Shown: positions 33,801-58,854 of the stretch, in pieces
Position numbering within the stretch: the stretch's first letter is position 1
Layout: every line of letters starts with the position of its first letter
Assembly (NCBI RefSeq): GCF_029227915.1
Contig: NC_079888.1
Coordinates: forward strand, 12,633,001 to 12,697,000
Source of the DNA: Hydractinia symbiolongicarpus
Taxonomy: Eukaryota > Cnidaria > Hydrozoa > Anthoathecata > Hydractiniidae
Length of the DNA stretch: 64,000 nucleotides
Direction: 5' to 3'
Translations under genes and position numbers: made by a program
The notes under the pieces: model-generated
The model's database searches: none
The model's input: only the letters and a program-made list of their open reading frames with translations
What the model was told of the DNA's origin: nothing

Positions 33801-36800
33801 TCTCACCTTTCTACTCCCCACCCTTCTACTACCTGTTCTCCCACTGCAAGTAAATGTCGACATCAGCATTATTTTAATGGTTTTAGTGGTATTTTTTTAG
33901 ATCAGACTTATCACAATTACCCTGAAGCATGTATATACTTTAAGAAATATTCATATTAAATTTTCATTAATGCTTATTTTCGAGTCTTACAACTACACTT
34001 TTGGGGGTTTTGTATGTTTTGATGTGATTTTTTATATTACTAAAATTAGTACTTCCCATACCGTTGTGTTTTAATGGACGATTTAAGAAACAATACATTA
34101 TTAGAAATCTGATAATATGACTTAAACATAAAAACTCTTGTGGTTTTAACACTTGACTTTATTAAGAATCTAGAATTTAGATTCCTTACAGCACTCCTTC
34201 ACTAACATTACACATTAATTTCACTCCTCCCATATGACCATGTATATTAAATCCAAAAAGAAAATATTTAGTAAGAAACATGCACCTTTATTTCTTTCTC
34301 GAACTGAACATTTATCATACCATTCAAAAGGTTCTTGATATCCTTTGACCTGCCGAACATTATTTCTTTTTCTGCTCTCAAATACTTCTTTTCTTTCATT
34401 ATCTAAATATAACATCACTTTAGGTTTTTTTAAAAGAAATCTTAATTTTTATGCAACCTTACATTCTCTTAAAAATTTCAGGCCTTAATATTTCCTGACA
34501 AAAAGAGAACACTTCCCTTTTTAGTCTTAAGCTTTATTTTTATGTGTCAAAGATAGTAAATTTATATGAAAATATCTCAGTCACTTTAAAAACTTTTGAT
34601 ATAAAAAATATGACAGGAAAAATGCATAATACACATACTTTGAGGTGGCTGATAATTTTGTCGGTCTGAGTTTGTTCCATCTCTCATTTTGTAATTTTCT
34701 ACAGTAATTGCATCTGAACCAGTTGTTGGTTCACAAATATATTGCAGGACAATATGACAATTTAATTTGTTGGGATTGTCATTCTCATTTCCTCCACAGC
34801 CATGCTGATTTGTCCATTCAATTCCCAAATTGCTAACACCTTTACCATTTTTTGCATTTTTTGAACTCTGGAAGTATACCTAAAATTTACAAAGACAAAA
34901 AAATGTAAAAAGAAAAACCTTTTTTTTAGAAGTGCTCTTTACCTGTCAGTTCCTATTCAAAATGTATTCTTTACTATTTTATATGAGTGCCCAACTTTAT
35001 TTAAACTATAAAGTGAACAAAAAATGTACCCTTCTTTTTTGCAAGCAGCCAAAAATACACAGAATCTAAAGAAAAACCAAGGTTGGTCTTTTCCTAATTT
35101 TCATTCTAATTCATGCAAATGTTGACATGACAATAAAAATTCTTGATTCAACATAAACTATTGACCAACACAGCTTTTAAGGTTAATGTAACTTAAATTT
35201 GTTCTCATTTCCTCTCTTAATTTAACTGTTGGTTGAGTATGGCAGTGTTGGATCACAAAAAAATATAAATTTCCAATATAATACAAAATAAATTGAATTA
35301 AAAAAGTCAGTTAATTCTATTTAATTTAATTCTATAATCAGCAAATTTGATATATAATAACAAAACGTTTTGTTTTATTTATATTATAAAAAAACTTTGT
35401 GTTGCTTTTGTTTTGCAAAAACAACGAAAATTATTTTGTATTACCATTCGATACTGATTAGCTTCATTTTTCGCGGCATTTGAAGTTTTGTCACCAACAT
35501 TGTATCCGCCTCTATTATTGTTCTAAACAGAAAAATAATTTTGTGTTAACCAACTAATTTATAAATCTGTTTAAAAAAAAATTACATATATATAACAGCA
35601 AAAACGTGGCCTAATGAAAATTAAAGGTGCCTTTTAGACATTCGTTGCCAAAACCATTTTTACCAAGCTAAAAAGTTCTCTAGTGTCAAAGTGTGAGTAT
35701 AGTCATAGACATTCCTCATTCATTGCATCCAGTAAAAAGGATCAAGCAAGATCTTTTACATGTGCTTTACTTACATGATTTAGTGTTTATCTTATTTCAT
35801 TCTTTTTTTAGCAAGAAGGCAAGTTTTATGGGGAAATAATACATGTAAAGATACAATTAACTAGCTAGCATACAATCAGGGAATTCCATGAGACAACCAC
35901 ACATGCCCAACCTGTTAAGGAGAGTGGAATTCATCGTATCAGCGATTTAATATGGGCAAGTGAATGTTATCATAGCCTCGGGTTAACCCAAGCCATCTAA
36001 GGGACAAGATGGCACATTGCATGGGCCATTGAATGGTGCAGGGAGTTGTCTGGCAGAGCGCAGACAGTAACTGGGTCTGCAAAATAAGCATTAAATACTC
36101 TACCCATCTAAGCCATAGCCCCTCCTGGAATAATAGACAGGACATCAGCACTCAGAATTACCAAAAATGTTTGACAATAAAATTTTGCCCCAATTAAGGT
36201 CAGCTGCACATTAAAAGCTCTTAGCAAAAACTAAAGTAATACATTTTTACACTTTAACTACATCATTAAAAACAGTTTAAAAGCACTTGTCGTTAAATTA
36301 AGTCATCGAAGAAAATGCAAAAACTTATTTAATTTAATGCTGTTTTTCTGCAGCTTCGAACTTTATTTTTAACCTCTTTCTTCTTTAATACTTTTTAATT
36401 AAAGTTTTTTAAAAAATGTAATCCTGCAAGTATGGTTCGGAGATTAAGTGTTCACCACCACCTGGGTGCGTGAGGATCACGTTTGCTAGAAAAGTATGAT
36501 CACAACAGGAAATGTATATACAAAATAATATTATGTTTGGAATATAATAGAACAACTAGTACTGAATGTCAATCTAAAAATCTAAAGTTATCATCGCATT
36601 TACCATGGAAGAAAAAGGAAACTTCCTACTGGTCCATACCAGTAAGAAAGCTGACTTCAGCTTACCAATATAAGGAGTAAAACTATTGAATGTGCTAATC
36701 AAATATATCCACAACATTTCTGATTGTACGCTGGATTTCTTCAAACACAGCCTTGATAGTTATCTATTCTAGATACCGGATAAACAACTAGTGGTTGTAT

Positions 36801-38080: not shown

Positions 38081-38414
38081 GTGGCGCCGTAGATTACTGG
38101 TTATAACTCTCGTACTCTGTGCGGGACACCGGGGTTCGATTCCTCTTGACGGCGATTCAACATGGGCAAATGAATGTTACCATAGCCCCGGGTTAACCCA
38201 AGCCATATGAGGGAAATTGGGGAGATGGCTCCATGTGTGGGCCGTTGAATGTTGCCGGGATTTGTCTAGTAGAGCGCGGGCCCTAATTGGGTCTGCGCAC
38301 CTCAAAACGAACATTAAATACTCTAGGACTCTCCATCTAAGCCATGGCCCCTCCTGGAAATAATAGACAGGGTATATCCCTCGTATTAGTAAGGCTAGCC
38401 ATGTAAAATATGCA

Positions 38415-38420
<6 letters not shown>
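38081..38420 (+). mobile_element. tRNA-derived SINE, family B, complete copy
   Basis: The tRNA-like head (38081-38155) has TGGCGCCGTAG as a likely A box and GGTTCGATTCC at 38133-38143 as a near-perfect B box. The body includes CGGGTTAACCCAAGCCATAT, which aligns with the central block of family A, then CTAAGCCATGGCCCCTCCTG. The 3' end, GTAAAATATGCACATCTATC, leads straight into the TATC array. Confidence 0.85.
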
Positions 38421-40100
<1,680 letters not shown>

Positions 40101-41447
40101 GTTACCTTAAAAAGCGCAAGTTTATTCTTGTTTCAATAGGTTTCCAGTTGTTCATTAACGTGCAGTACTACAATAAATGAATTAAGTTAATTTTCTGTCA
40201 GTTCTTAACAAGTAGTTGAAATATTCTTGCCCCCTATTTTGTGGATAAGTCGTATGTAGCTTGTTTTTATGTATTTTTTATCTTACCAACTCCCGTATTC
40301 CTCATAGATAGGACACGTAGGTAGAAAGTTGGTATAGGTGATTATTATGATGACACAACGACAGGAAAATTGCTGACGTCAGCATTTTTGTGAAGGTTCC
40401 TTATTTCTGCTGACATCATCAAGTTCATTGTTGTTTTAAAACCATTGAAGAAGCTTCTTTCTTCCTCAATTATTTGAGGGGTAGTCATTAGTATGTGCCA
40501 TTTGCAGGTTCGAGTTTTTAGTTAACAAATTGTGGTTGTTCCACCGGACTTTTACATTTTTTTGGGTATTTCCTATGTATGTTTTCCACATGTTAGTCTG
40601 TCTTAATGTTTAGCGGAGGTGCCCGCAAGAAGTTTGTACGTGGCGTATTAGTAATTATAGCGTTTCGTTGTTTCATTGATGCACAAGACAGATGTGTTGC
40701 ACATAACATTATTGCGCGCAAGAAGATCGGTGCTACGGAAACATAAAAAACGTCCGGGCTGGGCAAATTCCTGGGTTTATCCATGGGCTGTGGACTTATA
40801 TGAATTTATTTTGTTTACATACGGAAAATCTGCACCATTTTTACTAATTACCATCCCTACGTAAGCGGTGCTTGCCAGAACAGCAGTTAATGTATTAGTT
40901 TTAGAACATTGTATGTAGCTATATCGACTCCTACAGTTTATTTTGCTAACATTATGACAATTACTTCAGAGTAACATCTTTGGTACTACCTACGAATGTC
41001 CTGTGGGAGAACATCTTTCTCTATACTGTATCTAAGAATAGTTTGATATGTTGGTTAATACACGCCATAATAGACACTGTAATGTTAAATGTGTTTTATT
41101 TAGTCAGAGACGCCGTGAATAGTAGTTTCTAAGGCAGAACAATATGGTAATGCTGGAAAAAGGTAAGTTCCTTACAGAAATGTTCATATAAACACAAACG
41201 TTTACTTGAATTATTATTTCTAACGGAATAATTATCGGGAACATTTGTTAATACAATGTTGAAAATTAATAACAATATATCGTGTTGCAACATACAGTTA
41301 GATATTCATTAGTTAAAAATAGCTCTGAAAGCGTATTACACGAAAGAGGTGTATGAGAGGATGGTAAATTAAGAAAATGATCAGAAACATTTTGTTGGTG
41401 GGAATTGATTTGGTGGGAAAATAAATTTCACTTTTTGATTATATTTT
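40101..41447. other. Intergenic between SINE region and SET/recombinase gene
   Basis: No supported gene is seen. The open frames at 40593-40864 are not supported by domains or splicing. Confidence 0.4.
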
Positions 41448-41453
41448 TTTATT
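41448..41453 (-). terminator. Polyadenylation signal AATAAA for the SET/recombinase gene
   Basis: It lies about 40 bases past the stop codon at 41493 on the - strand, a plausible distance for the 3' end of that gene. Confidence 0.5.
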
Positions 41454-41492
41454 GCTACTTTCTATATGCATGCTGGGAAATATACTAATGTT

Positions 41493-42542
41493 CTAACTAG
41501 CATTGTCCTTTGCAAATTTCTTTTTCTCAGTGCGAACTTTCATCACTATTGTGGTTACACCGTATTTTTCGATCAAATCTTTCACAACTCTGTCAGCTTT
41601 GCTTGCACTGCGAATATCTGCCTCCTTAATTAATTTACTTCCTGTTATCAGGTCTCCAAATTTTCCCCAAATTGATTGGCTATCTTCGCTGGAAAACTTC
41701 ACCCTATCTTTTCTAGTTCCAAACAAGGATGAAGTCGTTTCACACGTCGAAATCGATGTATTGTCGCTGATCAGAGCTTCATTATCGTTAAAAGGGGCTT
41801 CTGGTTCGTGCACTGTTAATTCTAAATGTTTAATTTTCTATTTTAATTATGTACATTTTTAAAGTTATCCGTTTTAATTTTCCTTTTAAAAGCTTTTTAG
41901 AACAGGGTTGTATGTAAATGTGTATTATTTAAGTATAATTGAGTTATTGACGCAACACCTTTTCATTTTATTTTAACCATATATGAAAAGCAACTTCAAC
42001 GCCTCACTCACAAAATATTAAAGGTATATTGACGGAGAACAACATGATTAGCAATGTGAAGTTAATACACCCCAGAGTCCTTCGCCTGTTACCCCAGTAC
42101 GGCAGTTTGTCATATTTATTTTGGAAAAGCAAAATCTAGTGACTACAGTGACTGGACACTTTTTCTAAAAGCAGAATATATTTTTTACAAGATAAGTCTC
42201 CAAGTGCCACGCGAAACAACGCAGCGAAACTTGTAAATTACATTTGTTTTGAAAATATGATTTTTTGGGAAAGAAATGGTTAATAGTAGTCACTTTCTTT
42301 TTTAAAAGTCTAAGTTTTTTAAAAAACGTAAAGCTTACAGGGGAATTATAACGTAATGTGCAGAAAGAATGGGATAATAATAAATTGCGTAATCAGGTTA
42401 AAATTTTAATAAGAAAACTAAAAATCAATTTGTGAAAACGTATTAAAATGCTATGTCTCAAATTATTACCTTTATCTCTAACTTCATCGTTATTCTGTCT
42501 CTTCGTCTTCGACATGATGAAATAACGAATTTTATCTCGTAG
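41493..42542 (-). CDS. Exons 18-19: C-terminal domain of the recombinase gene
   Basis: Exon 18 (42470-42542) reads LRDKIRYFIMSKTKRQNNDE and ends G|GTAATA. Exon 19 (41493-41812) continues VHEPEAPFNDNEALISDNTS, then SSEDSQSIWGKFGDLITGSK and ADRVVKDLIEKYGVTTIVMK to TAA. The W...F...LI...L pattern resembles the small Myb-like module often found at the end of related recombinase proteins (inference). The exon 17 to 18 join needs a phase-0 donor; the only candidate seen, GAT|GTGTCT at 42661, is weak. Confidence 0.6.
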
Positions 42543-45500
42543 CTGTAGTGAGGTAAGATTAAAAAAGCTCGGATGTAATGTTGACTTTTCTTTCACGACA
42601 GTCAGAGTGATTTTACCATCACTTATCTCCTTTGCAAAATGCACTTTCCTCTAGAGACACATCAACGTTATTCTCAGTTTGGCGTAGGACAGATCTCAGC
42701 TCCCTACTTGTTTCTGCGGCACTTTTTGACTTTTCTTGCAGAAAGTACGACCGTCTGGCTGTTGCCTTGGAGTGGCACATTAAATTTGCCAACTGTTGCT
42801 CCAACTCTGGCCTCAAAGAATGAGTTTTAGTGACACACGTCTTGCGGACTAGTGTTGCATTAAGACGTGGTCGCAGCAAACTCCTTCCCACTGCTTTATT
42901 CCAAAATGAGTTCAACTGGCCTGTGGCCATTGAAGAAGACATTTTATTTCCGCTCCAGCTGGTAAAAAACGGGTTGTTGGCAGAACCTTTTTCGTCGTCT
43001 AGGCCTTCTAGCCTATTTCGGAAATGTTGAAAGAATATCGATGATTCTTTATATAGATTTGCAGTGAAGCAAATTGTCGCTGGTCCCGACGTCGCTATTG
43101 TTTTGTGGTTAAAAACACTTACAATATATACTCCATTTTCCATTTTCCCCGTCATGAACTCTTTGGTTGTCATGTTAGCCAAAGCACCGGTCCTTGACGC
43201 GTTATCCAAGCAGAGATAAGTTAAGATATAATCTCGAACAGAGGTAAATTGCTTGAATGTTGGAACTTTACCAGTGGCCAACACTTCCTTGATATTCCTG
43301 CGACAATTGGATACGTGTGTTGAATTATCGAAGGTGTTGACCTCTTCAGCTGTTATGAGCTGATCTAACTGCTCCAAATCTTTCATCCATTTGTCGCTTT
43401 TGGCCTTCTTTCTATACTCCACAATCCAGTTTTCCATGATAACTATCATGCTTGGACAGTCCTTAACGAAATCTTTGAAAAGCACAGGTGTGTCACACAA
43501 AATATACTTGTAAAAATGACATAGGGAATGGAGATAACTTTTTATAGTTCCAGCTTTTCTCCGTTTTTCAAAATTCAGTAACCATTGATTCCTGATCTTC
43601 ATGCGGTCAAAAAGAACGGATAATTCGTATGAATCTTGGCTGGTGTCCTTTAAAATCAGTTGCACTTGTCTGGAATGTTGTTTCGCAGCACGTTTATTTT
43701 TTCGCTTACCATCAGGGCTAACCAACCACAATTCAAATTTGTCAAAATGTGACTCATTCCTCCATGGTGTAATTATAATATCCATATTCTCATCCTCCTC
43801 ATCTTCATCCTCACTTCCATCCAAATCTTCAATTCTACATTCTAGAAGGAAAAAAACTTTTAAATGATGATTTTCCTCAGGGAGATAAATTAAATTCTTT
43901 ACACTAAGCTATTGAAAGGCTAAAATAATATAATACTATGCATTTTTTACTAAGAAAATCCTTATGGTTCAACAGATTCAAGTATTATCAAGTTACTTAC
44001 GCGACATGTCTTTGCGGAAAATTTATAGGTAAAAAATTCCTTTAAATACTTAATATTTTCTTGTAAATAAAAATTAACAAAATAATTTTTTTTAGAATAT
44101 CCTGCCACTTACAAACAATTAGAAAATGTTCTTATTACGGACTGTTTTTTGTTTGAATCCTTTTAGGTTAAAAATTCTGCTCACTGTTTAAGTTCAAATT
44201 TCTTAAGCATAAATTTTAAGTTGAACAAAAGTGGCAAATTTCTTTAAAAAATCCTGTTTAATGCTGGATAGAAACAAGTTTAATGAGAAAAGTTACGCAA
44301 AAATCATGTACAGAGAATAAAGTCGATATTTTCTTCATAACTTGCACGCTTCAATATATGTTCATATCAAACGCTCATATCTTAGGAGCAAAATTTTTAC
44401 GCAGCGTTGTTACAAAAGAGGAGGGATTGCATACTTTTTCGGTAAACAAGTCAAACCTTACATACCTAGTGAATCGTTTTTGCTTGTTATTGGCAATTTA
44501 CTACGGACAGGTTCTATAAATAAACAAATTAAAAGTAGAGTACGTCACAAGAAATACATTAAAGGTCTTCTGTTATCAAAAGAAAACTGTAGTTTTTAAT
44601 GGTTGTTTATAAGACAGGTCATAGAATGAAAAATTATACCTTGTTCTTGTTTTTCTTCGAAACGGACAGATAAAGGCTCAATCGTCGTTATGGAAGGAGC
44701 TGAGATGAGATAAAGACGATTTATTGACAATTATTGTGACATCATAACAGAAAGGATGAATTAAACAATCAAGAGTGCCATGACGACTTCTTATCAAATA
44801 TGCACTTAAAGCTAAACATACATACCTAGTGTCTCATTGAAAATTGGGAAATCTGAGTCAGGTTCTATAAATTAACCGAATAAATTGTAAATAAGCAGCA
44901 AAATTTTGTTTTTAACGGTTTAAAGTGCTAAAAAAGCGCTAACTGGGACAGAAAACATCTTTTCTTTTTTGTATTTGAGAGAAATTAGGATAGTTTTGTG
45001 AAACGGACATGCGCTTTCGCAGAAATTAGGATAATGGTTATACCTATTTCTTCCGTTTCTTCTAAATCGACAGATAAAGGACCAACACTTGCTATGGAGG
45101 GAGCTAAGATGAGACAAGGAATCGTATATTATTAACAGTGAAAGTAATAAAATAGCGAATCAACGAAACAAGCAGCAACCAATCACCCTTTTTTTTATAA
45201 GCGCCTCCCTCATTTAAGCGCCCCATGTAACAAGTATTGTTCCCTCTAAAAGAAAGAGGCGCTTAATAGAATTTTTTTTCAGATTCGTATCAACCAAAAC
45301 AAAAAACAAAAAAACTCGTAAATGATCTTAAAAAAAATCTTCTTATTAAAAAAGTTACAGCTTAATTTTCTGGGAATTTTAACTGCCATGTAAAACTTTT
45401 AACGTAGTATTTCTTCTTTTCGCCCCAACAAAAGAAAGAATGAACTTAACTGGTTATTCATATTCGAATCACTAGAATCTTTGAAATGTTATAAGGGTCT

Positions 45501-48500
45501 CCTTGTTTTAAATACACACCCCTGTGATAATCTCCCTCCCCTAAAAACTGGAAAATTATACTTGCCTTGGGCAACTATGAAAATTCACATTTTAGAGCTT
45601 AGACGGTGACGTGTTTCAGTGAAAATCTGCTTTTTTTTAAATTTCGCGATTGAAAGTAGCCTTTTTTTGGAAAAATGAATGAATGAGTGAATGAAATAAT
45701 GAATGAATGAAGAGATCGTTTATTTGTAATAGTTAGTTATAAAACATACAAACCTACCTCTAGAAATCGTGGAAGAAGATTTTCGATGCTTAACCAAAAC
45801 AGTTTCTTCTTGTCTTTCGCCTAGTGTACATAAAAATAGTTTTCTAAGCAAATTATCACCCTAATTTTCATTAATTATAACACCCCAGATCTGTATTGAG
45901 GGTTTTGGGTGTATATTGATTTCGTTATTAAAGTCATTGTTCAACTCACTAGGTCATAAAGATTTTTAGATTGAAAGCGCAAAAAAACATTTGCATAATG
46001 TCACATGAGAATAAATTTTTCCGACTTTATAACATCTTTGCTTAACCTAGTCTTTTAACAGCGCACTTTTGAAAGTAATCTTGTTTGATTCACCTGTTTT
46101 TTAATCGTAAATAAAGTGTGATTTGAGAAGTATGTTGTTTTTAACAGGGAATTAATCAACAGGTTAATATTTTAATTCCAGTGCGTCTCACTTTAAGAAG
46201 AAAGAAATTATTACGGCATCCAATATCAAACATTTATTTTTTGAACAGGCACACAATCGTATGTCAACAAAATCTGCAATTAACAAAGTTAATAATTTTC
46301 TTACTAGTTCTACGCTCTCTTTCTTCTCGCCTACGTTCCGCAATATTTCTAACCTTTCTCGAAAACCAATCTTCATCGCTGCTATCATTGGAATTCACAG
46401 GCGACATATTTTCAGCAACTTTGAGGTACTTCATTCCACCATTCCTCATGATCTTGTTTTCCTCTTCCCGTTCGCTACTTTCGCTGCAACTACTTGTCGC
46501 GCTATCTTCGCTTAAACCATTTTTAGGTGTAAATTCCTCGAAAGCAATGGCCTCTTTCATAGCAGCCTTAAATTTTTTGTTATCTTTAATTTTGTGTGTT
46601 TCTCTCAAATGATTTTCTATTCGAACAACCACTTTTGAGCAGCCCAGAATGGGACAAATCTTTTTCCGGTAAAATCGAGGTTTGGTTTTCCTTTGCTCGT
46701 TGGCTAATCTTTTTCTCTCGTTATTTGAACTGATTCCGCTTTTATAACTTTTGGCATTCTCTTCCGTTATCTGATGTACTCGAACAAGATGAACCACTAA
46801 ATCAGTCTTGTCTTGAAAGCAGACTGGACAAGTGCACACTTTTCGTTTTCGTTTCTGTGGAAAAGTGCTCCTCAAAGATTTTTCCCATAGATTGAAAGTC
46901 TAAATAAAATTTTAACAACTATTAATTTCGGTAGGTACCTAATGTTAACCATAAACAAAGGTGAATTGCTTACTTTTTTGGCTTCAGCTACATTTCCACT
47001 CCGAATCAACTGACACAATCTTTCTGTGACGTTCAAATCCTTCAATAAGTATATTTTTCAGAAATACTTAGTAAATGTTACAAGATTTGTCAAAAAATAA
47101 GTGGGAAAAGTTATTACTGTAATACCTTTTCATCACAGTTTTCTTTTCGCTTCACACGTTTCATAGGTGGCATTTCTGGTAGCGGGTTATCCTAAAAATG
47201 GGTATATTGTCAGTGTAAATTATTTGCCGATCTTGAATTAAATCTACATTTTAATTATTTTGTAAAATTGAAACAAAACAAATGCTTGTCATTTCCTTGT
47301 GTCATATTATGGTATTTTGTTATTTATTTCTACGAAAATAGCATAGGATATATTTCCAATCGCTTTTAGAACAATTCCTCTTATAACGACGTTCCTTTAA
47401 ATAAAATAAGATCGTAAAATCGTAAAATAAAATAAAGTAAAGAGCCTAAATCGATAAACTCAGATAGTTTTACAGAAGATCCTAAGTAAACATACACGTA
47501 AGCGTCTAACTTCTAATGTTAATTCATCGACATCAGCAAACTAAAAGTAAACACGTATTGCTACTATAACTATAGCATTCTGTTACCACTGATAGTCATT
47601 TGTAAAGAGTGTTAGGCAACTTGTCAGTCCAAAATGCTCATATAAAAAACTTCCTTAAGTGCTGATTAAGCAGTAAGGTACGTTACCTTTTCCTGAGCAT
47701 CGGTAGGATTAAAAATTTCATTTAACATTTCCGCCGCATTGTATTCTTGAGTTGGCAATACTTCCACTTTCTACAGGCACAGAGAGTAAAAATAACAAGC
47801 TCAAGAAAATGTATAAAATGCCCTACAAGAATACTAAATAATGAAGGAATTAATAAACAAATAAACTTGTTTTTACTCTTCCATGTCTAGCAGGTAACAG
47901 TCAAAATATATTAATACATTGCAATTATACATGCACTTACATTTTAGCTTCGGTTAAGAAAACTGGTAATGTAATTAGAAAGCCAGTTTCAAATGAGAAA
48001 TGTTTAAAACTAACCATATCTAGAACTGGTTTTGAACTCTCAGTTGTATCGTTAATGCTTCCCTCACCTGTCGCCTGTCTTTTATCCTACAGGAGCAAAT
48101 TTTTGGAATGAACAGCGTGTTATTATTGCGATATCAATATAGATTTAGAAATATTAAAAACTAACTGTATTTGAAAATTCCCTTGCGCTCTCAACTGTAT
48201 TTTCCCCGCCTTTGTCAACTGTCTCTTGTCTTCTACCCTACGAAAGTAATACAATTCATAGTATAAAGGCTATTTTACCAAAGATTGCGTGTTATAATTG
48301 CGAAATCGATATATAATGAAAAATAATAAAAACTAACTGTATTTGAAAATTCGTTCACGCTCTCAACTGTATTCTCCCCGCCATCGTCAACTGTCTTCTG
48401 TTTTCTAGCCTGCAGAAGTAAAATAATTCATAGTATAAGGGCTATTTTACGTGTTATAATGAACTTGAGATATTTTCAGCCTTGTGATTTTGTTAAAATT

Positions 48501-50113
48501 TCTTAAGATTCTGGACTTTCAAGACTAAATTTCATATATTGGGCATTAGCTAAGTTTAAAAGTTTTTTTGGTAAATCTATTTTGAGTATCTAAGCAGAAC
48601 GTATACTTTAACAAGATTCAAAATCTTATGATACCAATTTTCATTATGTAGATAAAGTGCCCAATTATCAAATAGTACCTTATTCTGTGGATCCACATCA
48701 ATAAATGTTAATCCATCTTTTATGTATTGACTTCTTGCCAGTGCAAAGTCAACGTCATAATCACTGTTTTTCTAAAAGGTTGTGTCAAATGTGGAATGGT
48801 TATTATTTTAAAATTAATCACATTTCGTCCACATCTAAATAATATAATCACCTTCTTATTCTTTTCCTTTAGTTTACTTAAAGTGTATTTTACCTTGGAC
48901 CTCTTATCCTATAAAAAGACAGTATTCAATGTAGGCACGCATAGGCTTGATGCATTAACATAAAGAGAAATTCACAAACCTTTCTCCACCAAAGACCGCT
49001 AGCTCCATACGAGTATCGCAACTCCTCACCAGGGCAAATGTCTTTTAGTGCAAATAAGCACAAGTGCAGGCGTCCATTTAACAAAACACTTTTCATTGCA
49101 GAGTTGGGAAACTTTGAATCGTTGACGTATTTTCCTAACCTTTCTTCGTGTGTTGCATCAATGCTATAACATAAAAGTCAGATGTTACATCAACAATCTT
49201 ACGTACTTGTTTAAGTTTACACATTTTATATTCGAAATAAAGAAAATATTTTTTGAGAAAATATTCTGTCTGAAAGAAAAAGTAACGGTAGGTGACTTAC
49301 CATTTATTTTTATAAAAAAATAGGAACGATCCTATGTCATCTGGATAAGTTTTCATCAACTCATCACCTTCCTCTTCTGTTAGCAAAGTACCAGGGTACT
49401 CCAACAAGAAATCATTCTTCTGGAAGTTAATCGTCGCAAAAATTCCATAACCTACACGAGATCAATAGACTCAAAAATAGACCTACAAATAAACGAGCGA
49501 CTGAACAAACGACTGCACGAACGACTATTCTTACCAATGTAGTCATCGATGTAACATTTTTCAAATCCAGGAGGATCGGCTCCGAGCTCGCAAAAGATTT
49601 TTGCTACCTCTTCTCCAGTTTTTTTTCTTGATTTTTGTGGCTTAAGATAAGATGTTCATTGTTAGACTATTTTATGGTTACATTTAAATAAAACAACGGT
49701 TTGTAAGAAGCGGATATTTTCAACATCACCATCAAAATTTACTAAGGAATTGATTTTTCGAATACGTTAACTGATATAATAGCTTTTGTGAGCATGGCAA
49801 ACCACTCTTCGTATAAATACTAGGCGTTCGTTGGTTGGGTGATAGCTTTTTGAAGACTCAAGTATTGTTTGTTTTACACAAACTCGTCCCCAGCGCCTTT
49901 TCTCTCCTATTAGTAAAAAAGAGACAAAAGGCACTGGTACGAGTTTGCGTTTTACAGTTACTATAATCTTCTTAGTACCAAATAACTTCTTATACAAATA
50001 CATTGCCTTCTATTTCATTCATCTTCGCTGAAACTCTACAATCACTAGTTTAAATTTTTTAGTTCTATATCAACTAAATAACTCACCTCTCTTGATCTGA
50101 TTTCTGAACTCAT
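41493..50113 (-). CDS. SET domain - zinc finger - tyrosine recombinase protein, 19-exon model
   Basis: Exons on the - strand: 50113-50087, 49640-49535, 49451-49301, 49163-48980, 48908-48852, 48771-48679, 48409-48338, 48237-48166, 48086-48015, 47770-47687, 47191-47126, 47039-46974, 46899-46305, 45820-45758, 45103-45044, 44699-44640, 43841-about 42661, 42542-42470, 41812-41493. All have GT/AG ends and phases agree, giving about 1133 residues. Order: KMT5A-like SET domain (about 35-156), low-complexity linker with duplicated exons (157-350), two C2H2-type fingers (about 374-450), acidic linker, tyrosine-recombinase core (about 616-1000), C-terminal WGKFGDLI domain. Eukaryotic tyrosine recombinases of this type occur in Crypton and related transposons. 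Phase agreement argues for one transcript, but separate neighbouring genes are not excluded. The join after exon 17 is uncertain. Confidence 0.75.
42619..43841 (-). CDS. Exon 17: tyrosine recombinase catalytic region
   Basis: The exon starts after TTCTAG with ECRIEDLDGSEDEDEEDEN. An N-terminal core-binding-like helical part follows (SYLHSLCHFYKYIL). The catalytic region has DNASRTGAL (first Arg), VFNHKTIATSGPA (Lys), NATLVRKTCVT (second Arg; the usual His three residues earlier is Thr) and LMCHSKATARRSYF (His, and Tyr as nucleophile). The set R..K..R..H..Y is therefore complete and in order. The frame is open for about 400 codons to a TGA at 42619, with no sign of decay. A spliced transcript should leave before that stop. 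Confidence 0.85.
44640..45820 (-). CDS. Exons 14-16: linker exons, two of them duplicated
   Basis: Exon 14 (45758-45820) encodes ERQEETVLVKHRKSSSTISR. Exons 15 (45044-45103) and 16 (44640-44699) are both 60 nt, phase 1, and related: APSIASVGPLSVDLEETEEI and APSITTIEPLSVRFEEKQEQ. Flanking intron sequence is also similar, so this is a tandem genomic duplication of about 404 bp. Confidence 0.7.
45663..45715. repeat. GAAT-type simple repeat
   Basis: Imperfect AATG units in an intron of the SET/recombinase gene. Confidence 0.6.
46305..46899 (-). CDS. Exon 13: two C2H2-type zinc fingers
   Basis: The acceptor TTTATTTAG precedes TFNLWEKSLRSTFPQKRKRK, a basic nuclear-signal-like run. Finger 1 is CPVC-x11-HLVRVH. 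Finger 2 is CPILGC-x10-HLRETH. An acidic serine-rich stretch (SATSSCSESSEREEENK) and a basic ERRREERERRT end follow. The donor is ACT A|GTAAGA, leaving phase 1. Paired fingers of this sort usually bind nucleic acid; in recombinase proteins they could give target recognition (inference). Confidence 0.8.
46974..48908 (-). CDS. Exons 5-12: charged linker with three duplicated exons
   Basis: All eight exons are phase 0, a pattern typical of exon shuffling and duplication. Exons 7, 8 and 9 are each 72 nt and related: RKQKTVDDGGENTVESVNEF, RRQETVDKGGENTVESAREF and KRQATGEGSINDTTESSKPV. Exon 5 may instead be only 15 nt (48894-48908), because GTAAAATA is also a possible donor; both choices keep phase. 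Other exons encode DFALARSQYIKDGLTFIDVD, QEYNAAEMLNEIFNPTDAQE, PPMKRVKRKENC and LNVTERLCQLIRSGNVAEAK. No domain is recognised. Confidence 0.7.
48980..50113 (-). CDS. Exons 1-4: SET (lysine methyltransferase-like) domain
   Basis: ATG at 50113-50111 starts a 9-codon exon ending GAG|GTGAGT. The SET domain runs GYGIFATINFQKNDFLLEYPG (exon 3), then CIDATHEERLGKYVNDSKFPN and ICPGEELRYSYGASGLWWRK (exon 4). This matches the KMT5A (PR-Set7) pattern G(R)G-IFAT, DF-EY-G, C-DAT, GEEL-Y-YG. Two deviations may affect catalysis: the usual NHS is NDS, and the usual Y-D-Y is Y-S-Y. The likely role is methylation or reading of a lysine substrate, as an inference. Confidence 0.85.
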
Positions 50114-52149
50114 TTTCGTGTTCTGACTTTAAATTAACTATTTTTTCTGACTATTGTTTATAACCTGCTTTTTAAAAATATTTATACACTAAATGTTGTA
50201 CATTATTTTACAGGAATGTGTAATGTGTCAAACCTTGCTCGACTAAATAAACACTGACACGACAACATATATACAAACTGAAAGCTGCCCTAATTAAAAG
50301 CCATACATCACACTTACGTCTTTGACGTAGCTTATAAGTTGTTTCTTAGTAAAAACTTACACGTTCTTATTAAAACTGGTTAAATTATTTACCCTAATTC
50401 CTCGGTTGAGCACTATACTGGGGCCATTATTAGAGGTAAATAGTGTATTGAGCCTTATAATCGCCTCATTCAGGGAAAAGAAAGTTATTCAAATATTTTG
50501 ACAATGATTTTAACAATGATAAAACAAACCATAGAGATATTTTAATGATATTTCTATGATAAAACTAAAAATGCACTTCGGTTAGTTTAAAAAACATTTT
50601 ACTGAATACAAAGTTCTGCAGTGTTTTTTACTCCTGAAATTCTCCTGTCAATTAAATGAAGAATTTCATTCACTTCAGAATTTCCATATATGTTTACTTT
50701 GCGTGCCCCTGTTTAAAACTATTGGGTCCAGGGTTTTTTAACATACTACTCCCCCTCCCTCCTTTCACAACTTTTGATAGGCTTTTTCTTTAAATTCAAT
50801 CAAACTTGGCACACTTATACTACGTCACGACAGGAACGAATTTCTGACGTTATTTAACATATTTTGCATAATTCGCGTAAAAAAGGATAATATTTCATCC
50901 TTACCCTTATAAAGGGATTTCAAAGAAATTTAAAGGGTAGTTTTACATATTGATCATACAGCATAGCAAAAAAGAGTTATAAAAAAAACCCGGCAGGGGG
51001 TTCGGCATCCGTCCCCATCCCCTGGACCAAGTAGGGTTACAGCCTGAGATTTAAGTAAACACACTTGCAATTTTAGAGAAAACATAGGTTCTTTGTTTGG
51101 GCTAATGAAAACAAGTCTAAGAAGAAAGTTTGTGATACATTCGCACAAAAAAATTTCTTTGATCTACGTACAGCATACGCACTCACATGAGAACAGGCCT
51201 GAAGAAAAAATTTTGAAAGCTGGGGGGTAAAACAGTACATAAGTATTTAGTATATAAGGATACCCCAGTATGGTTGGTGCTGAGGAAGAAGAAAATATTG
51301 TCAATTTTACTCCAAATTCTATAATTTCGCTTTCAGGTTTCAGGTACAAAGGTACAAAAATTATACTGGTAACGTCTTTTTGATGGATGATCTCAAGGAG
51401 CATAGCTCATTTTCACGTTTGCGCAGCATGTTTTGCGCTTTGACACAGAGGCGCGTAAAAAGGTTTTCTTGTCTCGCACCAAAAAAGTAGGTTGGAGGGA
51501 GTATTATGATCTTGTGATTTACAAATAAAAATAGGCAGGAGCAATAGCTTGTGTGCAGGTCAGAAGTATTAAATACTTCAGGTCAAATTCTTTTATATTT
51601 TATTTTTATGGTTATTTATTTGTAACAGCTTAGAGTACTGCCGAAGATAGATATTTTCAAGTTACGTCGGCGGATCGTTCTTAATGCGTTAAATTTAATA
51701 TATGATTTTCAAGTTACTTTTAAAAGTGACATCATAAAAATTTTAATGGTTCTAGAAGGTTCGAATATTTGGAGGGCAAAATCAAAATCAAATCAATCTC
51801 CCATTTATATATTTTTAGCATAAAAAGAAGAAAAACTAGTTGGACAAGTTGATGGAAAAAATCTGGTCTACTTGAAACGTTAAACACATTATTATATAAC
51901 TAACATAACTTTTGGATGAGGTTTAATGTTAATGTTGCTTTCAAATTTCGGTTTTTAAAGGAGTTGAATTTTATGCTGCTTGCATAAAAAAGGCGTATAA
52001 ATGAATTTCTTTTCTAAATTCCCTACCTGGAAAACGCCCAAAATAAATTGTTTATTTTGAAACGATGTCCCGGAGCAAAACTATTTCTAGGTCCCTGAGT
52101 TTAAGCAATATAAATATGCGACACATTTTCTGGTTTTCTACGGAATAAT
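50114..52149. other. 5' flank of SET/recombinase gene and intergenic DNA
   Basis: No gene is recognised. Open frames at 50954 and 51164 lack support. No terminal inverted or long direct repeat matching the other side of the recombinase gene was noticed. Confidence 0.4.
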
Positions 52150-54660
52150 AATCAAGCTAAGCTATCAAGATGGCGGAGAGCGCGGGCGTGTTGTTGTTAT
52201 ACTTGTTTGTACTTGGCTTATATGTTTTTAATTATGAAAAGCAACGTTTTACTACATCGAATCGTATTAACAAAACTTGCAGTGATAGAGAATCGTTCGA
52301 AAAAGATGATTTATCTACTCGACGTAGAAATATAACAAATCAATATTCGAAATCTGTTACTGCTTTCATATTAATCTGGCCCTAATTTTACATGTATCGC
52401 GGACTCTGTTAAATCTAAAGGTTTTACTGTGCTCCATCAAAATATTAAAGGGTTATGTGGGAAGAAAGATCTCCTTGAAGATATTTTATTTGAAAATAAA
52501 AAAATCGACATTCTCTCCTCGAGTGAAACATTTGTTGCTAACGACGAGTTGTTTGACACAGAAATCCGAGGGTTCGACTTCGTGCATAAGAGTCGTACAA
52601 CTGGAATGGAAGAAAGAGTGGGTGCATATATCAAGCAAGGTGTTCCATATGTGAGAAGAAGAGAAAAAAGGATATTGAAATTTTATGGCTCTTAGGAGAT
52701 ATAAATTGTTTTTCTTATAAGAATCGATCACAAAGAGATAAAAGATATATTCACTACCTTTGGTTTCAAACAATTAATTACACAACCAACGAAAATAACC
52801 GAAAATAGTGCAACTTTAACAGACGTTGTACTATCAAATTCTCCAAACACCATTTCACATGGTAAAACGCTTTCATCCAGTCTAAGCGATCACGACACGG
52901 TTGACTGTATCAGAAAGAAATTTTTTACAAAATTCGCTTCAAAGAAATTAACGAGTCGAAATTACAAACATTATAATTCAGAAACAGTCTAGATGAGTTA
53001 GGGACAATACAACACGCAATTTATTACGAAAAACAAGAAAGTCAGGTTAAGATTGCGACGTCGGTCTATTAACGGAAGAAAAACTACGTAAATATTCTGA
53101 TCAAAAAAGCCGAGATAGAATACTGTAAAAATCAACTCCAAGACAATATTTCAAGTTTGAAACTTTCTGGAAATGCTTGAAAAATCTCTTTCCTGCGAAG
53201 GCAAAAAGGACTATATCAAACGCTAAACGGAACCGAGACCGCAAATAAAAAGAAATTGCAAATGGGTTCTGCTTGTTTTTCCACAGATAATCGAGAAATG
53301 TATTCATCAACAACTTTCAAAATACATGGAATCAAATAATCTTTTGTCATGAAAGCAATTTTGGGTTCCGTAAGCATAGATCAACTGAAACGGCTGCAAC
53401 TTTGTTCTTGGATGACATTCACAAAGCAATGAATAAATCACAACTAACTGGCGCCATTTTTTATCGATCTTAGCATGGCTTTCGATACAATAATTCATAG
53501 CGCCATTCTAAATAAACTACCGAATTATGGCATTCTCGATCATAAAAAACAATCTTTTACAGATTACTTAACCGTTTAACCGTTGGCAGCACGTTTCCTA
53601 CAACATCACCCTATCTTCGAGTCAACCCGTATTTTATGGTGTCCCTCAAGGATTAATACTGGATCCGCTGCTTTTTTTACTCTATTTTAACGAGACTGAA
53701 AAGCAACTCGAGAACTGCGAAATTATGATGTATGCCACGGTCATTAACTTTCATCACAACAATATATTTTCAATCGAACATGCACTCACCAAAGACTTAA
53801 AGAATTTATCTGACTGGTTAGAAGAAAATGAACTCATCTTGAACCTTAAACAAGAAAAAAACAGAGGTCATACTTTTTGGGACACAATCACGACTTACAA
53901 GACAAAACCAAAACATCAGCATTATGTATCGCTCAGATAAAATTAACAATACAGAAAGATACCAGTATCTAGGAGTCAACCTGGATCCACCACTGACTAT
54001 GGTTGATCATTTCAACTCTGTATACAGGAGGGTATCTGGGAGACTTCGAATGTTACGTAAAATTAGATCTCATCTATCAGCTACCGCAGCACTGCGTATC
54101 TATCAGGCTATGATCGTACCGAACGCAACATATTGTTCACTTACAAATTACTTCCACCAGCCATACAGAATGCATATGCTCGAGTTACTAGATAGCACAT
54201 AGTATCATCCGACACGACACTCACATACAACAATTCATAATTATCAGATGCGAAAGCTCTTTACCACCGTGCATGAATGTTTAATAGGCGACGTTCCTAT
54301 GTTTGAAGAGTATTTTAAGGTGATATGTCACAACATCGGGACAAGGAACAATCACCACCTTCTTCGTGACCCAATAGTTAAGCTTGAATCGACAAAAATC
54401 AATGCTGCACTAAACTATAATAAACTTCAACTTGATATACGTTCAGAAATTGACACAAAGGACTACTGCCAAGTTAAAGTTTTATTCTGTATGAATTAAA
54501 ATTTGAGTTTTTTGGAATGTTTATATACCTATCAGTTGAGTATGTCATTTGTGCTATGTGCTTTCTCTTTTTTCTGTGGTCCTCTTTTTTGTTTGTGATT
54601 TCTAATATTTTAATTGTGTTTATAATGTACATATAATAAAGAATGTTTTTAACTTTTCAT
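52150..54660 (+). mobile_element. Decayed CR1/L2-type LINE
   Basis: A start in good context (AAGATGGCGGAGAGC, 52170) opens a short N-terminal frame. Endonuclease remnants follow: LHQNIKGLCGKKDLLEDIL (52432) and NKKIDILSSSETFVANDE. RT remnants are FGFRKHRSTETAATLFLDDI (53360), FIDLSMAFDTIIHSAILNK, FYGVPQGLILDPLLFLLYFN (53636) and the C-terminal RVSGRLRMLRKIRSHLSATA (54030). The catalytic FADD box is degraded (MYATVINF). It ends near AATAAAGAATG (54636). Frameshifts and stops make it inactive. The RT order and the C-terminal block resemble CR1/L2-group LINEs. Confidence 0.82.
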
Positions 54661-57600
54661 ATTTATTAACGAACAGGACTTTATAGAAAGAACAGTTTAT
54701 TTTTAACTGATATTTAGAACCTGTAAAATATTATTGAAATAAATTAAATAAATTAAAAACCTTAGAAAACAGTATATTATTTCATTTTAACCCAATTTTT
54801 TGACCTGCGTAAGTATTTGAGGGTAGCATAACGTGCATGCTATCCATAAAATCTGACAGAGTTATACCTCGGCACATTTGACGTCAGCATTCTTTGTGTG
54901 TCGTCTTGAGAAATTTTTAGGTCAGGTAAAATATTATTACCTATCAAAACGGTGTTAGAGACCGTTCTGTATAATACTTGGCTATTTTGCTATAATTTTC
55001 TGTTGGTAATATACAATAGTGTATAACATCATCTATTTTTACACATAGTGAATCCTGATAAATATTATATCTCGCATTAGAAGCGTAAAAACCAGGGAAG
55101 ACAGAATTCGCAATCGAGAAAGCATTTTAGATATCAAAATTTAAATTTGCCGCAGGCACATTATGACCCCCGCCCATGATAGAGTTAATAAAGAATAAAA
55201 GTTAGAATAAATAAAGTTTTAAATTTTTCAAATATCTTTGTTGCTTTATCCAACTTTAAAACGCTCTAAAAAAAGAGGACAGCCTCAGAGAGCACTTTTT
55301 TCCTGCTATTTTATCATTTAAGGCTGGTTATTACTTACAAGTCGTTTCATTCTTAAAAAAATTTGGACCCCCGCGTTGCTTGAAAGATGCTGATAAAAAA
55401 ATATTCATTTCAGTGCATTAAAAAACCCTTTTTCTCTCACTCGAGCAATGTAAGACAGCTTAAACTTTCCCCAACAATATTCTTCCGTTGGCCATTAAAA
55501 GGCTACCACCTTATATTTTGCGCAAAAAAACTGAAGATTTAATTATCGATGTTCGGATGTAAAACTATGGAGGTGTGGAGAAAGAGGAGAGCAATTAATT
55601 AAAAAAAGAAAAGGAAACATTGTTGTAGTGCAGCCTTGAAGGAAAAGTTGTGAAATAAGTTAAGTTTTTAACATTTTTGATCTAAACAGAGCGCTTATGT
55701 GATAAAAGCGCTTAATCAACGCATCTTAGTAACAAAAAAAGAACGAATAAGAAATATTTTTCAGTAGCACCTCCCTAATGCAAGAATTTGTCTGTCGTAT
55801 TTTAAATGTGACGCATTGTAAAAAAATCCTTGTTTTAGTTAAGTTTAAATCCCTAACGTTCTTAATACTTTTATATTTGACACGTTGTAACAATTTGTGT
55901 AGAAACTCGGTATATATGCAATCCTGTTAGAAAGGAATATTTAAACGATTTATCAGTTTGATCAACGTGTGCAACGCAACATAAGATAAAAAACACCTAC
56001 AAAAAATTTAAATAATTATGTTTATTTGTTGAAGAAAGCTGTTATATTGTGGCGACCTTATTATATTAAAATCCAATCATACAAAAAATATGCAATATCA
56101 AGCGTGTTCATAATTAGCTGTAGTTTATCGATTATGGTTATGTTGTTTAAATAATATAATGGCAAGCGATATTTCGTATATGTGTGCATGTAAGCGTCAG
56201 GAAGTGTGTACCGGAATTCATTTTGTATTCATTGTATATCATCATCAGCATGCGGTCGTTGCTATCAAGAATATTTTTCATCTGTAATCTACAGGAAAGT
56301 AACAAAGTTAAAATTTATCAAACAAATGTTTTATATCTTTGTGATCATCGAAAAATTTATTCATATACTTTAAAAAGACAATCCAAATTATTGCATTACG
56401 ATAAGTAATTTTACCTATATAACACGCCAAATATTTCAAAGCTGAGAAAAATGATAAATAAGCTTAACAATCTGATTAGTAGAGTTGAAAAATGTATATG
56501 TACATACTTTGGAACAATTGACTTCCCCACAAATGCCACATAATCAAACTGTCATTAATCCTGTTGCCATTTTCTTGCTCCTGGTACACTTTATTTACTT
56601 TATCTAAATGACAGAACTAAACTTAAAAAACGCATTGTAATAGGAAATCCATTTACAGTGATAAATATTTCGAATTTAAAATTCTATGGATTGTGTTGTC
56701 AGGAGTTTCATATTTGAGACAACTATCTGGTTTTTTGAGAAAGCTTCAAAACCTATTGCATTGTGGAGTGTTTACAAGGTTCGTTAAAATGCACTGAATG
56801 CATTGATAAACTTTCTACCAGCATTTTTTTCCTTAATACTTTTAACCGAAATGAAAAATAAAATAATGAAAAATGATTTGTAAAAAAAAAATATACAGAA
56901 TACATAATCAAGAATTTCATTTTTAGAAAAATAATTTCTTGAATCGAACTTTACAAAAGACTTAGTATAGACTCAGTATAGACCACACACTCAATTATTA
57001 ATAACAAACCTGCAACTTAAATTCTTACAGCCTAATTGGTCAAGGAAAGCAAGCAGAATTCTGTTATATCATATCTGTTAATATGATATGCACTCACAAT
57101 TGCTCTCCACATTGGAATGTGGATATAGAGGATGTACACCAACCACAATCTAGGAAATTAAGATCTTAAAATAATTGGGTAATTGGGACTCTGCTGCTTA
57201 TATGGTGGCATAATGTATATATACATCTTTCATGTCTTATATTCCTTTACTGCAGCTAGATACCATATTAAGACAAACTTATTATTAATTTGAATGTTTG
57301 TTGCAAAAAATATAAAAACAATCAGACATACATGGAATATGTGGTACAAACAGTATTTTGCCGTGTAAACCCATTTACGTCATTGAAAACATTTCGTTGC
57401 ATCAAATTATTTATATAACTTTCATTCATTATTTTTTATTTTACGTGTAAACTACACAAACAGACAATCTTCTGTACAACAATAGCTACCCATTATACAG
57501 AATTTATCACAATGACCGCAATCCGGGTAATTCTCACTTGACGCATCAGCTGGTTTTCTTAAGAATTATGCCCAAATACGTTTACAACAAGTATATATCT

Positions 57601-57741
57601 TTTAGAAACCAAAAAAAAGCCAGCGTGTTGTCACTCTATGGCAAACAAAAATAATAAAGAGAAAAAGAAACATCTAATCAGTTACACATAAAAGATAAAT
57701 GTAATATATATAGCTAGCTACATATAGCTATAAAACTTAGC
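54661..57741. other. Intergenic, no gene or element recognised
   Basis: AT-rich DNA without a supported coding segment. GAGCGCTTATGTGATAAAAGCGCTTAA near 55690 is a small inverted motif. Confidence 0.4.
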
Positions 57742-57745
57742 CTAA

Positions 57746-58076
57746 GGGGCCTTCGAAAAAAATTTTCGGGCCTTGTTAGCAGGATATCGCCGCTAAGATT
57801 CAGAGACCCTTCCCCTCTTTTAGTGGATTTCCGTCTGTGAAATACACACATTCGGATAAATTCTTGGAAGGCTCAGGGGCGTGTTTTGTAGATAAAAGTT
57901 ATCGGAATTGATGAAAATAGGAATTATGCTCACGAACAACGAAGAATGTTCAGGCCACGAACAAATTTTTAAAATTTCTCAATCCTTAGCGGATTTCTTT
58001 TTCAAGCTTCAGACTCCCTCCCCTCTTAGCGGTGATATCCCGCTAAGGGGGCCCGAAAAAAAATTTCGAAGGCCCC
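57746..58076. mobile_element. PIF/Harbinger-type MITE with TAA target duplication
   Basis: TAA (57743-57745) precedes GGGGCCTTCGAAAAAAATTT. The right end GGGCCCGAAAAAAAATTTCG then AAGGCCCC is followed by TAA (58077-58079). Inverted ends of about 28 bases and TAA duplication are typical of PIF/Harbinger non-autonomous copies. No transposase is present. Confidence 0.78.
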
Positions 58077-58251
58077 TAAGTATGGTAGCTTTGCACTTTA
58101 AAATTAAGAGATTATATATAGCTATGTTGAGAGGCCATGTTCATTTTTTCAACAATTATTTCCTCATGCAACTTATTATGTATATACTATTTCTAGTTTT
58201 CAAGGATGTTGTATAATAGAAAATCACAACTTTGAACTTTCATCTTTACGA

Positions 58252-58312
58252 TAGCTAGCTAGCTATACATAAACTGCTAACATAGATAACTAGCTAGCTA
58301 GCTAACTAGTTG
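58252..58312. repeat. AGCT-rich tract
   Basis: Runs of AGCTAGCTAGC with short breaks. Similar tracts recur at about 62455-62560 and 62697. Confidence 0.5.
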
Positions 58313-58524
58313 AATATCAAAATAAAAGTCTATGATATTGTACATATTCTTAGCATGTTAACAAAAAGATTAATAAAGAAGCAAAAATATAATCAACACA
58401 GAACAAGAAACAATCCTACACCTCTGTAAACTTTCACTAACCAATATTCACTGTTTGTAATAATAACCTCGATATCCTCCGTTTGTTATTTTTGTCTTGA
58501 TTGCTTTGTACCACGGGAGCACTA

Positions 58525-58752
58525 AATATGAACATCGGGAGCACTGCTCCCGATATGCAAAATCGACAATTTGCATTTCGGGAGCATTGCTCCCTGGATG
58601 CAAAATGAAATTTGAATTTCGGGAGCAAAATTGTTACAGGGAGCAGGCAATTTGAATTTCGGGAGCAATGCTCCCTGGATTCAAAACTAAATTTGAATCC
58701 AGGGAGCAAAATTGTTACATAGGGAGCAAATAATTTGAAAATCAGGAGCATG
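58525..58752. repeat. GGGAGCA palindromic repeat cluster
   Basis: At least six units of AATTTGAATTTCGGGAGCA and its reverse complement (TGCTCCCGATATGCAAA, TGCTCCCTGGATTC) in alternating orientation. A TATC array follows directly. The open frame on the - strand here is a product of the repeat. Confidence 0.8.
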
Positions 58753-58758
58753 AATATT

Positions 58759-58759
<1 letters not shown>

Positions 58760-58854
<95 letters not shown>
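58760..58854 (+). repeat. (TATC)n microsatellite, about 24 units
   Basis: Pure TATC array at the end of the GGGAGCA cluster. Confidence 0.95.

Follow-up and report, generated by a model that had tools for sequence, protein, structure and literature searches.

A probable tyrosine-recombinase DNA transposon with a SET-domain gene at microsatellites of Hydractinia symbiolongicarpus

We analyzed a 64,000-nucleotide stretch of the genome of the hydrozoan Hydractinia symbiolongicarpus (C14:12633001-12697000, hereafter the window), in which a minus-strand gene at 41493..50113 joins a SET domain, zinc fingers, and a tyrosine recombinase. This gene lies within an element of ~19.5 kb (39258..58758), named F1, the extent of which was delimited by homology with five other copies and by reading of both termini; the mobile unit thus reaches beyond the gene on both sides. 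With a probability of roughly 0.85, the locus is one of several F1 copies of a large DNA transposon of the tyrosine-recombinase type, which carries a single SET-finger-recombinase gene and whose families use microsatellites of their own. The genome searched comprises 481 Mb; the window copy is designated W and the other gene-bearing F1 copies C4, C11, C14b, C14c, and C15, each compared over a fetched stretch of 20 kb with positions 38401-39320 masked in the query.

One reading frame for SET domain, fingers, and recombinase

The F1 gene was chained by sequence as 21 exons running from 50113 to 41493, with AG at all acceptors, GT at all donors, and agreeing codon phases. In W, the frame is open from the ATG at 50113 through the SET domain, the fingers, the recombinase, and the catalytic Tyr, and is broken past this residue, late in exon 20, at a point where 8 bp present in all five other copies examined are missing. 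In the C11 copy, all 21 exons are open to a TAG, encoding 1222 amino acids. The initial annotation had proposed 19 exons on this strand; its chain, GT/AG ends, and phases were recovered, whereas the number was not. The order that it had read on the minus strand, from SET through two C2H2-type fingers to the recombinase core, is the one found here, and the three-part fusion is sustained by the single frame, the intact C11 copy, and the same order and strand in the families F5, F2, and F4. A chance exon chain is ruled out by the 21 agreeing exons, the intact C11 reading, and conservation in other families, and an artefact of a single locus by the presence of six gene-bearing copies. Likewise, separate neighboring genes are ruled out by the long open frame of the F4 stretch L031 and by the joined deposited proteins of Hydra, Saccostrea, and Hydractinia, both described below. 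Within the chain, exons 7 and 8 with the adjoining intron (48115-48450) form a tandem duplication, 84-85% alike.

Exons 2-4 (48980..49640, minus strand) encode a SET domain of the KMT5A type, with the signatures CIDAT, VNDS, and GEELRYSYG. The exon-4 frame matched PF00856 (E 1.5e-8) in a Pfam scan of five window pieces, and PDB sequence comparison placed KMT5A/SET8 as the closest solved structures (E 2.4e-16), followed by EZH2 (2.5e-14); the element SET has both CxDAT and GEELxYxYG. The cofactor motif in SET domains is usually NHS. At this position, NDS is read in F1, F2, F4, and F5 as well as in the proteins P0004-P0008 and P0025, and NHS in F3; in P0002/P0003 neither was found. In a tree of 17 SET rows, eight SETs from elements fall together (94/93, on a branch that is not starred), with one of the 14 inner branches starred and seven open. 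As five of the seven host rows are named insects and one branch to the outgroup has great length, a single SET capture by the elements is suggested rather than established.

Exon 14 (46305..46899, minus strand) encodes two CCHH fingers, as aligned in A1, and has at least 54 genome matches, six of them at 98-100% identity. Pfam matches to the fingers were sub-threshold only; their Cys/His pairs are kept in the covering A1 rows (six for the first finger, seven for the second), with the exception of P0009, in which one Cys is lost. Exon 20 (42470..43841, minus strand), the one that is 8 bases short in W, holds the recombinase and the start of the tail. The catalytic Arg, Lys, Arg, His, and Tyr correspond to R216, K246, R332, H356, and Y365 of window:42636-43839 and are invariant in the five sequences of alignment A2. 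These five residues in order, along with recombinase fold matches on a low-confidence model, are those of a tyrosine recombinase. On that same low-confidence model, the top 26 Foldseek ranks all go to tyrosine recombinases or their kin, four of them at E <0.001, including XerH, XerA, Cre, Tn1549 Int, lambda Int, and one topoisomerase IB, as well as MrpR and YopR, which we take to be tyrosine recombinase kin. The His of the HxxR box is not present here. Crypton recombinases are DUF3504 kin and the Starship captain recombinase is DUF3435; the recombinase exon matched no Pfam family at E values of up to 1, the captain family included, and had no PHROGs match and no PDB sequence match, and an NCBIfam scan returned nothing informative. 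Alignment of the window-type and Hydra-type recombinase profiles with hhalign gave 88% at E 3.2e-6. Exon 21 (41493..41821, minus strand) encodes the C-terminal tail, which is 36% identical to that of F5.

Dispersed copies and their microsatellite ends

Six copies of the 19.5-kb unit, spread over four chromosomes, bear the gene; piece by aligned piece, they are 96-99.8% alike. Calculated in the same manner, identity to the window is 99.8% for C11, 98.8% for C14b, 96.3-99.4% for C14c, 98.5-98.8% for C15, and 98.3-98.9% for C4, with large gaps or inserts relative to the window in C4, C14c, and C15. Alignment of the copies sets in where the masked tract stops (39321-39323) and continues to the right; for C15 it sets in at 40898, the start of its stretch. 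Left flanks differ between copies where seen (C11, C14b, and C4 by BLAST, the others by eye), the flank being visible no further than the tract in C14c and L045 and over six bases in L047. At the other end, the right terminus pattern AATATTCATGYTCCYGA maps to 58742-58758. Truncation of C14b at its right end was rejected, as this pattern places its terminus at C14:14861798; because of this placement, the break at w57490 in C14b is more likely an insertion. Subterminal repeats of GGGAGCA/TGCTCCC, perhaps protein-binding sites, were detected at 58524..58751 by Tandem Repeats Finder (TRF), and have a counterpart, GGGAACA/TGTTCCC, near the F5 end.

The initial annotation had left a choice between a mobile element, perhaps one that marks chromatin at its target, and a domesticated host regulator. 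Mobility gains support from dispersed near-identical copies with defined ends, and the genome count delivers the anticipated near-identical paralogues with precise boundaries, that is, six gene-bearing copies with shared ends and, where seen, differing flanks. A domesticated regulator is unsupported at this locus because the differences among the F1 copies give no sign of constraint; of 63 variants scored, 13 are synonymous and five make stops, all five in C14c and one also in C14b. Domesticated members may exist elsewhere.

On the left (gene 3') side, F1 is bordered by an (ATCT)n microsatellite (38416..39257, plus strand; 211 copies of ATCT by TRF), and on the right (gene 5') side by (TCTA)n in the same orientation (58759..58854, plus strand; 24 copies by TRF). 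The left tract is host DNA, namely the 3' tail of a repeat resembling a short interspersed nuclear element (SINE; 38083..38442, plus strand), which contains a tRNA-type B box, GGTTCGATTCC, at 38133, while an A-box pattern search of this repeat gave no match. Over 366 bp, the SINE-like repeat shares 92.6% identity with L040:1330-1695, and this other copy (L040:1330-1770) has an unbroken (TCTA)25 tail. A further partial copy with a (TCTA)6 tail lies at 4374-4422 of the window.

A left-end probe returned 16 rows from the genome, namely 13 ends, one internal duplication, and two pieces of one end-less fragment. All 13 F1 left ends begin at probe base 1-2, and a TCTA-type tract adjoins 11 of them, one of these being (TATCCATC)n (L044) and two being mixed. 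As background, TCTA-type sequence accounts for 124 bp of 146,641 bp, in two runs. The probability of finding 11 of 13 left ends at a tract by chance is ~1e-32, or 1.5e-22 if any simple repeat counts, at the published 0.70% of the assembly, in both cases with a tract type picked after seeing it. Right ends lie at (TCTA)n in all four copies in which they were seen (W, C4, C11, and C15). In these four copies and in F5, the tracts run in the same orientation on both sides of the element and are of tract length, not of 4-6 bp, and their lengths differ from copy to copy. In C14b (L023), a left-end segment of ~440 bp is duplicated in tandem. Five other left ends (L041, L043, L044, L045, and L047) come without a near-identical finger exon and are perhaps internally deleted derivatives.

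Both ends were likewise read for F5 (L040, L058, and L059; ~13.6 kb in the one copy read), which has (AAAT)n at both, ~23 bases of the downstream tract being read. The 5' termini of the two families are nearly identical (AATATTCATGTTCCCGA in F5 versus AATATTCATGCTCCTGA in F1), and a degenerate pattern of this terminus occurs 19 times in the genome versus none for the reversed control. In F2, for which the gene-3' end was seen, this end lies at (ATT)n in three of three copies with differing flanks. Inward from the tract, one end of F1 and F5 starts with ATATTCATG and the opposite end with AGATTCA; together they resemble an inverted recombinase site whose spacer derives from the tract.

The fusion in other families and animals

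A single 1272-codon frame in the F4 stretch L031 covers the SET domain, the fingers, and the recombinase as far as its second Arg; the His and Tyr part follows in a different frame. Deposited single proteins that join SET and recombinase were found in Hydra (P0004), Saccostrea (P0005), Hydractinia (P0006), Acropora (P0002/P0003), and Amphiura (P0036). A recombinase profile built from Hydra-type proteins without SET columns, and without P0005, P0006, P0002/P0003, P0007, or P0036 in the build, retrieved SET-bearing proteins of Hydractinia (5e-79), Saccostrea (1e-65), Acropora (3e-29), and Amphiura (1e-18), and matched none of 12 PR-Set7-type proteins. The AlphaFold model of the Hydra protein P0004 is better over SET and recombinase than the window model, but its pTM (predicted template modeling score) is 0.41; SET8 structures occupy ranks 1-25 of its structure matches.

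The collection also contains departures from this plan. P0006, encoded on C14, has an N-terminal SET, then a protein kinase (PF00069, E 2.8e-28), and then the recombinase, which makes a second architecture. The recombinase profile matched P0007 (Hydractinia, C5) in part only, and a stretch of P0005 (Saccostrea cucullata) also matches Herpes_teg_N (E 1.9e-6). P0026 of Leptinotarsa decemlineata is a LIM kinase model with a PR-Set7-type SET at its end, perhaps a gene-model fusion. Minisatellites precede the SET in F2 (~89 bp; L050/L051, by BLAST offsets) and F3 (114 bp; L035-L037), and one of 155 bp lies upstream in L034.

Weighing of the readings, proposed mechanism, and meaning

Several observations weigh against a microsatellite-seeking SET-recombinase transposon. 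The predicted SET-recombinase joining in F1 is read from genomic DNA alone, and the deposited F1 protein P0009, which derives from the C4 copy and stands for a cluster of eight, begins in exon 10 and is devoid of SET; in exon 8 of the C4 copy behind it, one base is inserted and the donor is altered. Of the three parts, SET alone was matched in the 10-kb F3 stretch (L036), whereas L034 matched with its fingers and recombinase but no SET; F3, L034, and F4 are represented by internal stretches. The AlphaFold model of the window recombinase is of low confidence (predicted local distance difference test, 58; pTM, 0.42), all 50 structure matches listed for P0004 are to SET, with the recombinase part absent among them, and the SET-free profile missed the window-type recombinases P0001, P0009, P0010, and P0011. 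The two recombinase types are linked solely by the profile comparison and the low-confidence fold. Methyltransferase activity of the element SET is doubtful because the usual NHS reads NDS. As for the ends, two of the 13 left ends have no clear tract (one with an old degenerate tract, one with none), the right terminus of C14c was not found in its fetched stretch, that of C14b was located by pattern alone, and the tract side was read for five of the 19 termini of the degenerate pattern. The downstream tract of F5 was read over the short span given above, and a TCTA tail is missing from a partial SINE-like copy, 77% alike, at 35929-36141 of the window.

Other explanations were confronted with the same evidence. 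The tracts could be terminal TCTA repeats of the element itself, expanded after insertion with no targeting involved; the variation in tract length among copies would fit, and some transposons do end in short tandem repeats. Nonetheless, F5 has nearly the same terminus with (AAAT)n on both sides, one F1 left end (L044) lies at (TATCCATC)n, and the window tract forms the tail of a SINE-like repeat also known elsewhere with its tail unbroken, all of which renders this explanation improbable. Alternatively, a host chromatin gene family might have grown by segmental duplication instead of transposition. Here and below, what is said of published work applies to the accessible parts of each source. 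For Hydractinia, PMC10368294 gives a count of up to 65 KMT5A-like genes, of which 22 are activated early in the embryo, and for sea urchin a count of 61, with sea-urchin similarity at both protein ends. Against such growth stand the exact shared ends, the flanks differing where seen, the spread over several chromosomes, the presence of a recombinase, and the lack of apparent constraint; the word 'recombinase' is absent from the main text of that paper. We regard this explanation as highly improbable.

We consider it just as doubtful that the unit was moved by another agent, be it homologous exchange between microsatellites or something virus-like, with the SET-recombinase gene as its cargo. 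The tracts would allow exchange, and large endogenous viruses with recombinases insert in telomere repeats (PMC10871703), but gene, terminus, and subterminal repeats stay together in both F1 and F5, and no virion gene was noticed in the ORF (open reading frame) listings of the unit, no systematic scan having been made and the Pfam scan having covered the five window pieces. Similarly, no cargo gene was identified in F1, a systematic search for which was not made. Least probable of all is a DIRS/Ngaro-type retrotransposon with a lost or hidden reverse transcriptase. Such elements also use tyrosine recombinases, and by our own reading ORFs at ~52375-54499 resemble endonuclease and reverse transcriptase fragments of a long interspersed nuclear element (LINE) nested in F1, those at 53572-54499 being reverse transcriptase-like. 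The latter segment falls inside a stretch (53366-55438) that is missing from the C4 copy, 20 introns do not fit copying via RNA, and ORF reading, with no reverse transcriptase profile scan made, revealed no conserved reverse transcriptase in F1.

For a DNA transposon of the kind favored here, we propose that the recombinase would bind short inverted ATTCA-type sites at both element ends, beside the tract. Joining of the ends would give a circle with microsatellite sequence at its junction, and this junction could then recombine into a matching microsatellite elsewhere, with the crossover inside the tract, which would leave tract on both sides. Families would have diverged in the tract used, (TCTA)n in F1, (AAAT)n in F5, and (ATT)n in F2. 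The SET domain may methylate or dock on histone H4, and thereby let the recombinase reach nucleosomal DNA or the element escape silencing.

Among known systems, Cryptons come to mind, as the initial annotation had suggested. The recombinase is the sole candidate mobilizing enzyme seen in F1, and Cryptons are proposed to move via a circle and reinsertion at short shared direct repeats (PMC3212892). This much of the likeness stands, as does the lack of a conserved reverse transcriptase in our reading, whereas membership is less certain, given the missing Pfam match, the extra domains, a size of 13-20 kb, and the microsatellite targets. Animal Cryptons are described in that source without a C-terminal domain or terminal repeats, whereas F1 has SET, fingers, a conserved tail, 21 exons, and microsatellite targets. 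Nimavirus recombinases typically come with a C2H2 zinc-binding domain, and insertion into the tandem repeat (TAACC)n is known, but these are large crustacean viruses whose targets are one telomere-type motif or 28S ribosomal DNA (PMC10871703). Uptake of a host epigenetic enzyme by a transposon family has a precedent in retrotransposons, there with DNA (cytosine) methyltransferases in LINE, DIRS, and Gypsy elements (PMC5890265). The accessible text of neither of these two papers contains 'SET domain'. Starships are giant transposons of fungi (PMC12134995). They share large size and a tyrosine recombinase with F1, but are described with cargo genes. By sequence, KMT5A/SET8 is the nearest relative of the element SET, which sits N-terminally and is fused to a recombinase, whereas that of host KMT5A is C-terminal (PMC10368294).

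The KMT5A-like expansions of Hydractinia, Hydra, and sea urchin are themselves published, in PMC10368294 (2023), which describes KMT5A-like genes with an N-terminal SET and similar C-terminal ends and takes them as likely H4K20 methyltransferases. The words 'Crypton' and 'methyltransferase' are absent from the main text of two Hydractinia genome papers, and literature titles and abstract openings, with Repbase and most subscription papers out of reach, mention no transposon with SET and a tyrosine recombinase; in two reviews (PMC9406493 and PMC10380595), the terms 'SET domain', 'Crypton', and 'tyrosine recombinase' all occur. What is new here is the landing site, that is, SET-recombinase element families sitting in distinct microsatellites. 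More broadly, a single animal-wide transposon superfamily, in cnidarians, molluscs, and echinoderms at least, may have taken the KMT5A SET once, radiated by microsatellite switching, and come to account for most of the published KMT5A-like expansion, embryo-activated genes included, a proposal for which we see the odds as evenly balanced, the F3 stretch with SET alone counting against it.

If the reading of F1 is true, a recombinase transposon has been fused to a histone methyltransferase-type domain. As a transposon gene would then join a recombinase with a histone-modifying domain, a share of the additional histone methyltransferase genes described from such animals may belong to transposons, which offers an alternative reading of the H4K20 methyltransferase expansion and its early-embryo activation. 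Microsatellites may, in turn, be viewed as safe harbors for large elements. The families make up a natural series in which a near-identical terminus is paired with different microsatellites; therefore, the target choice of a eukaryotic tyrosine recombinase would be testable by part swaps.

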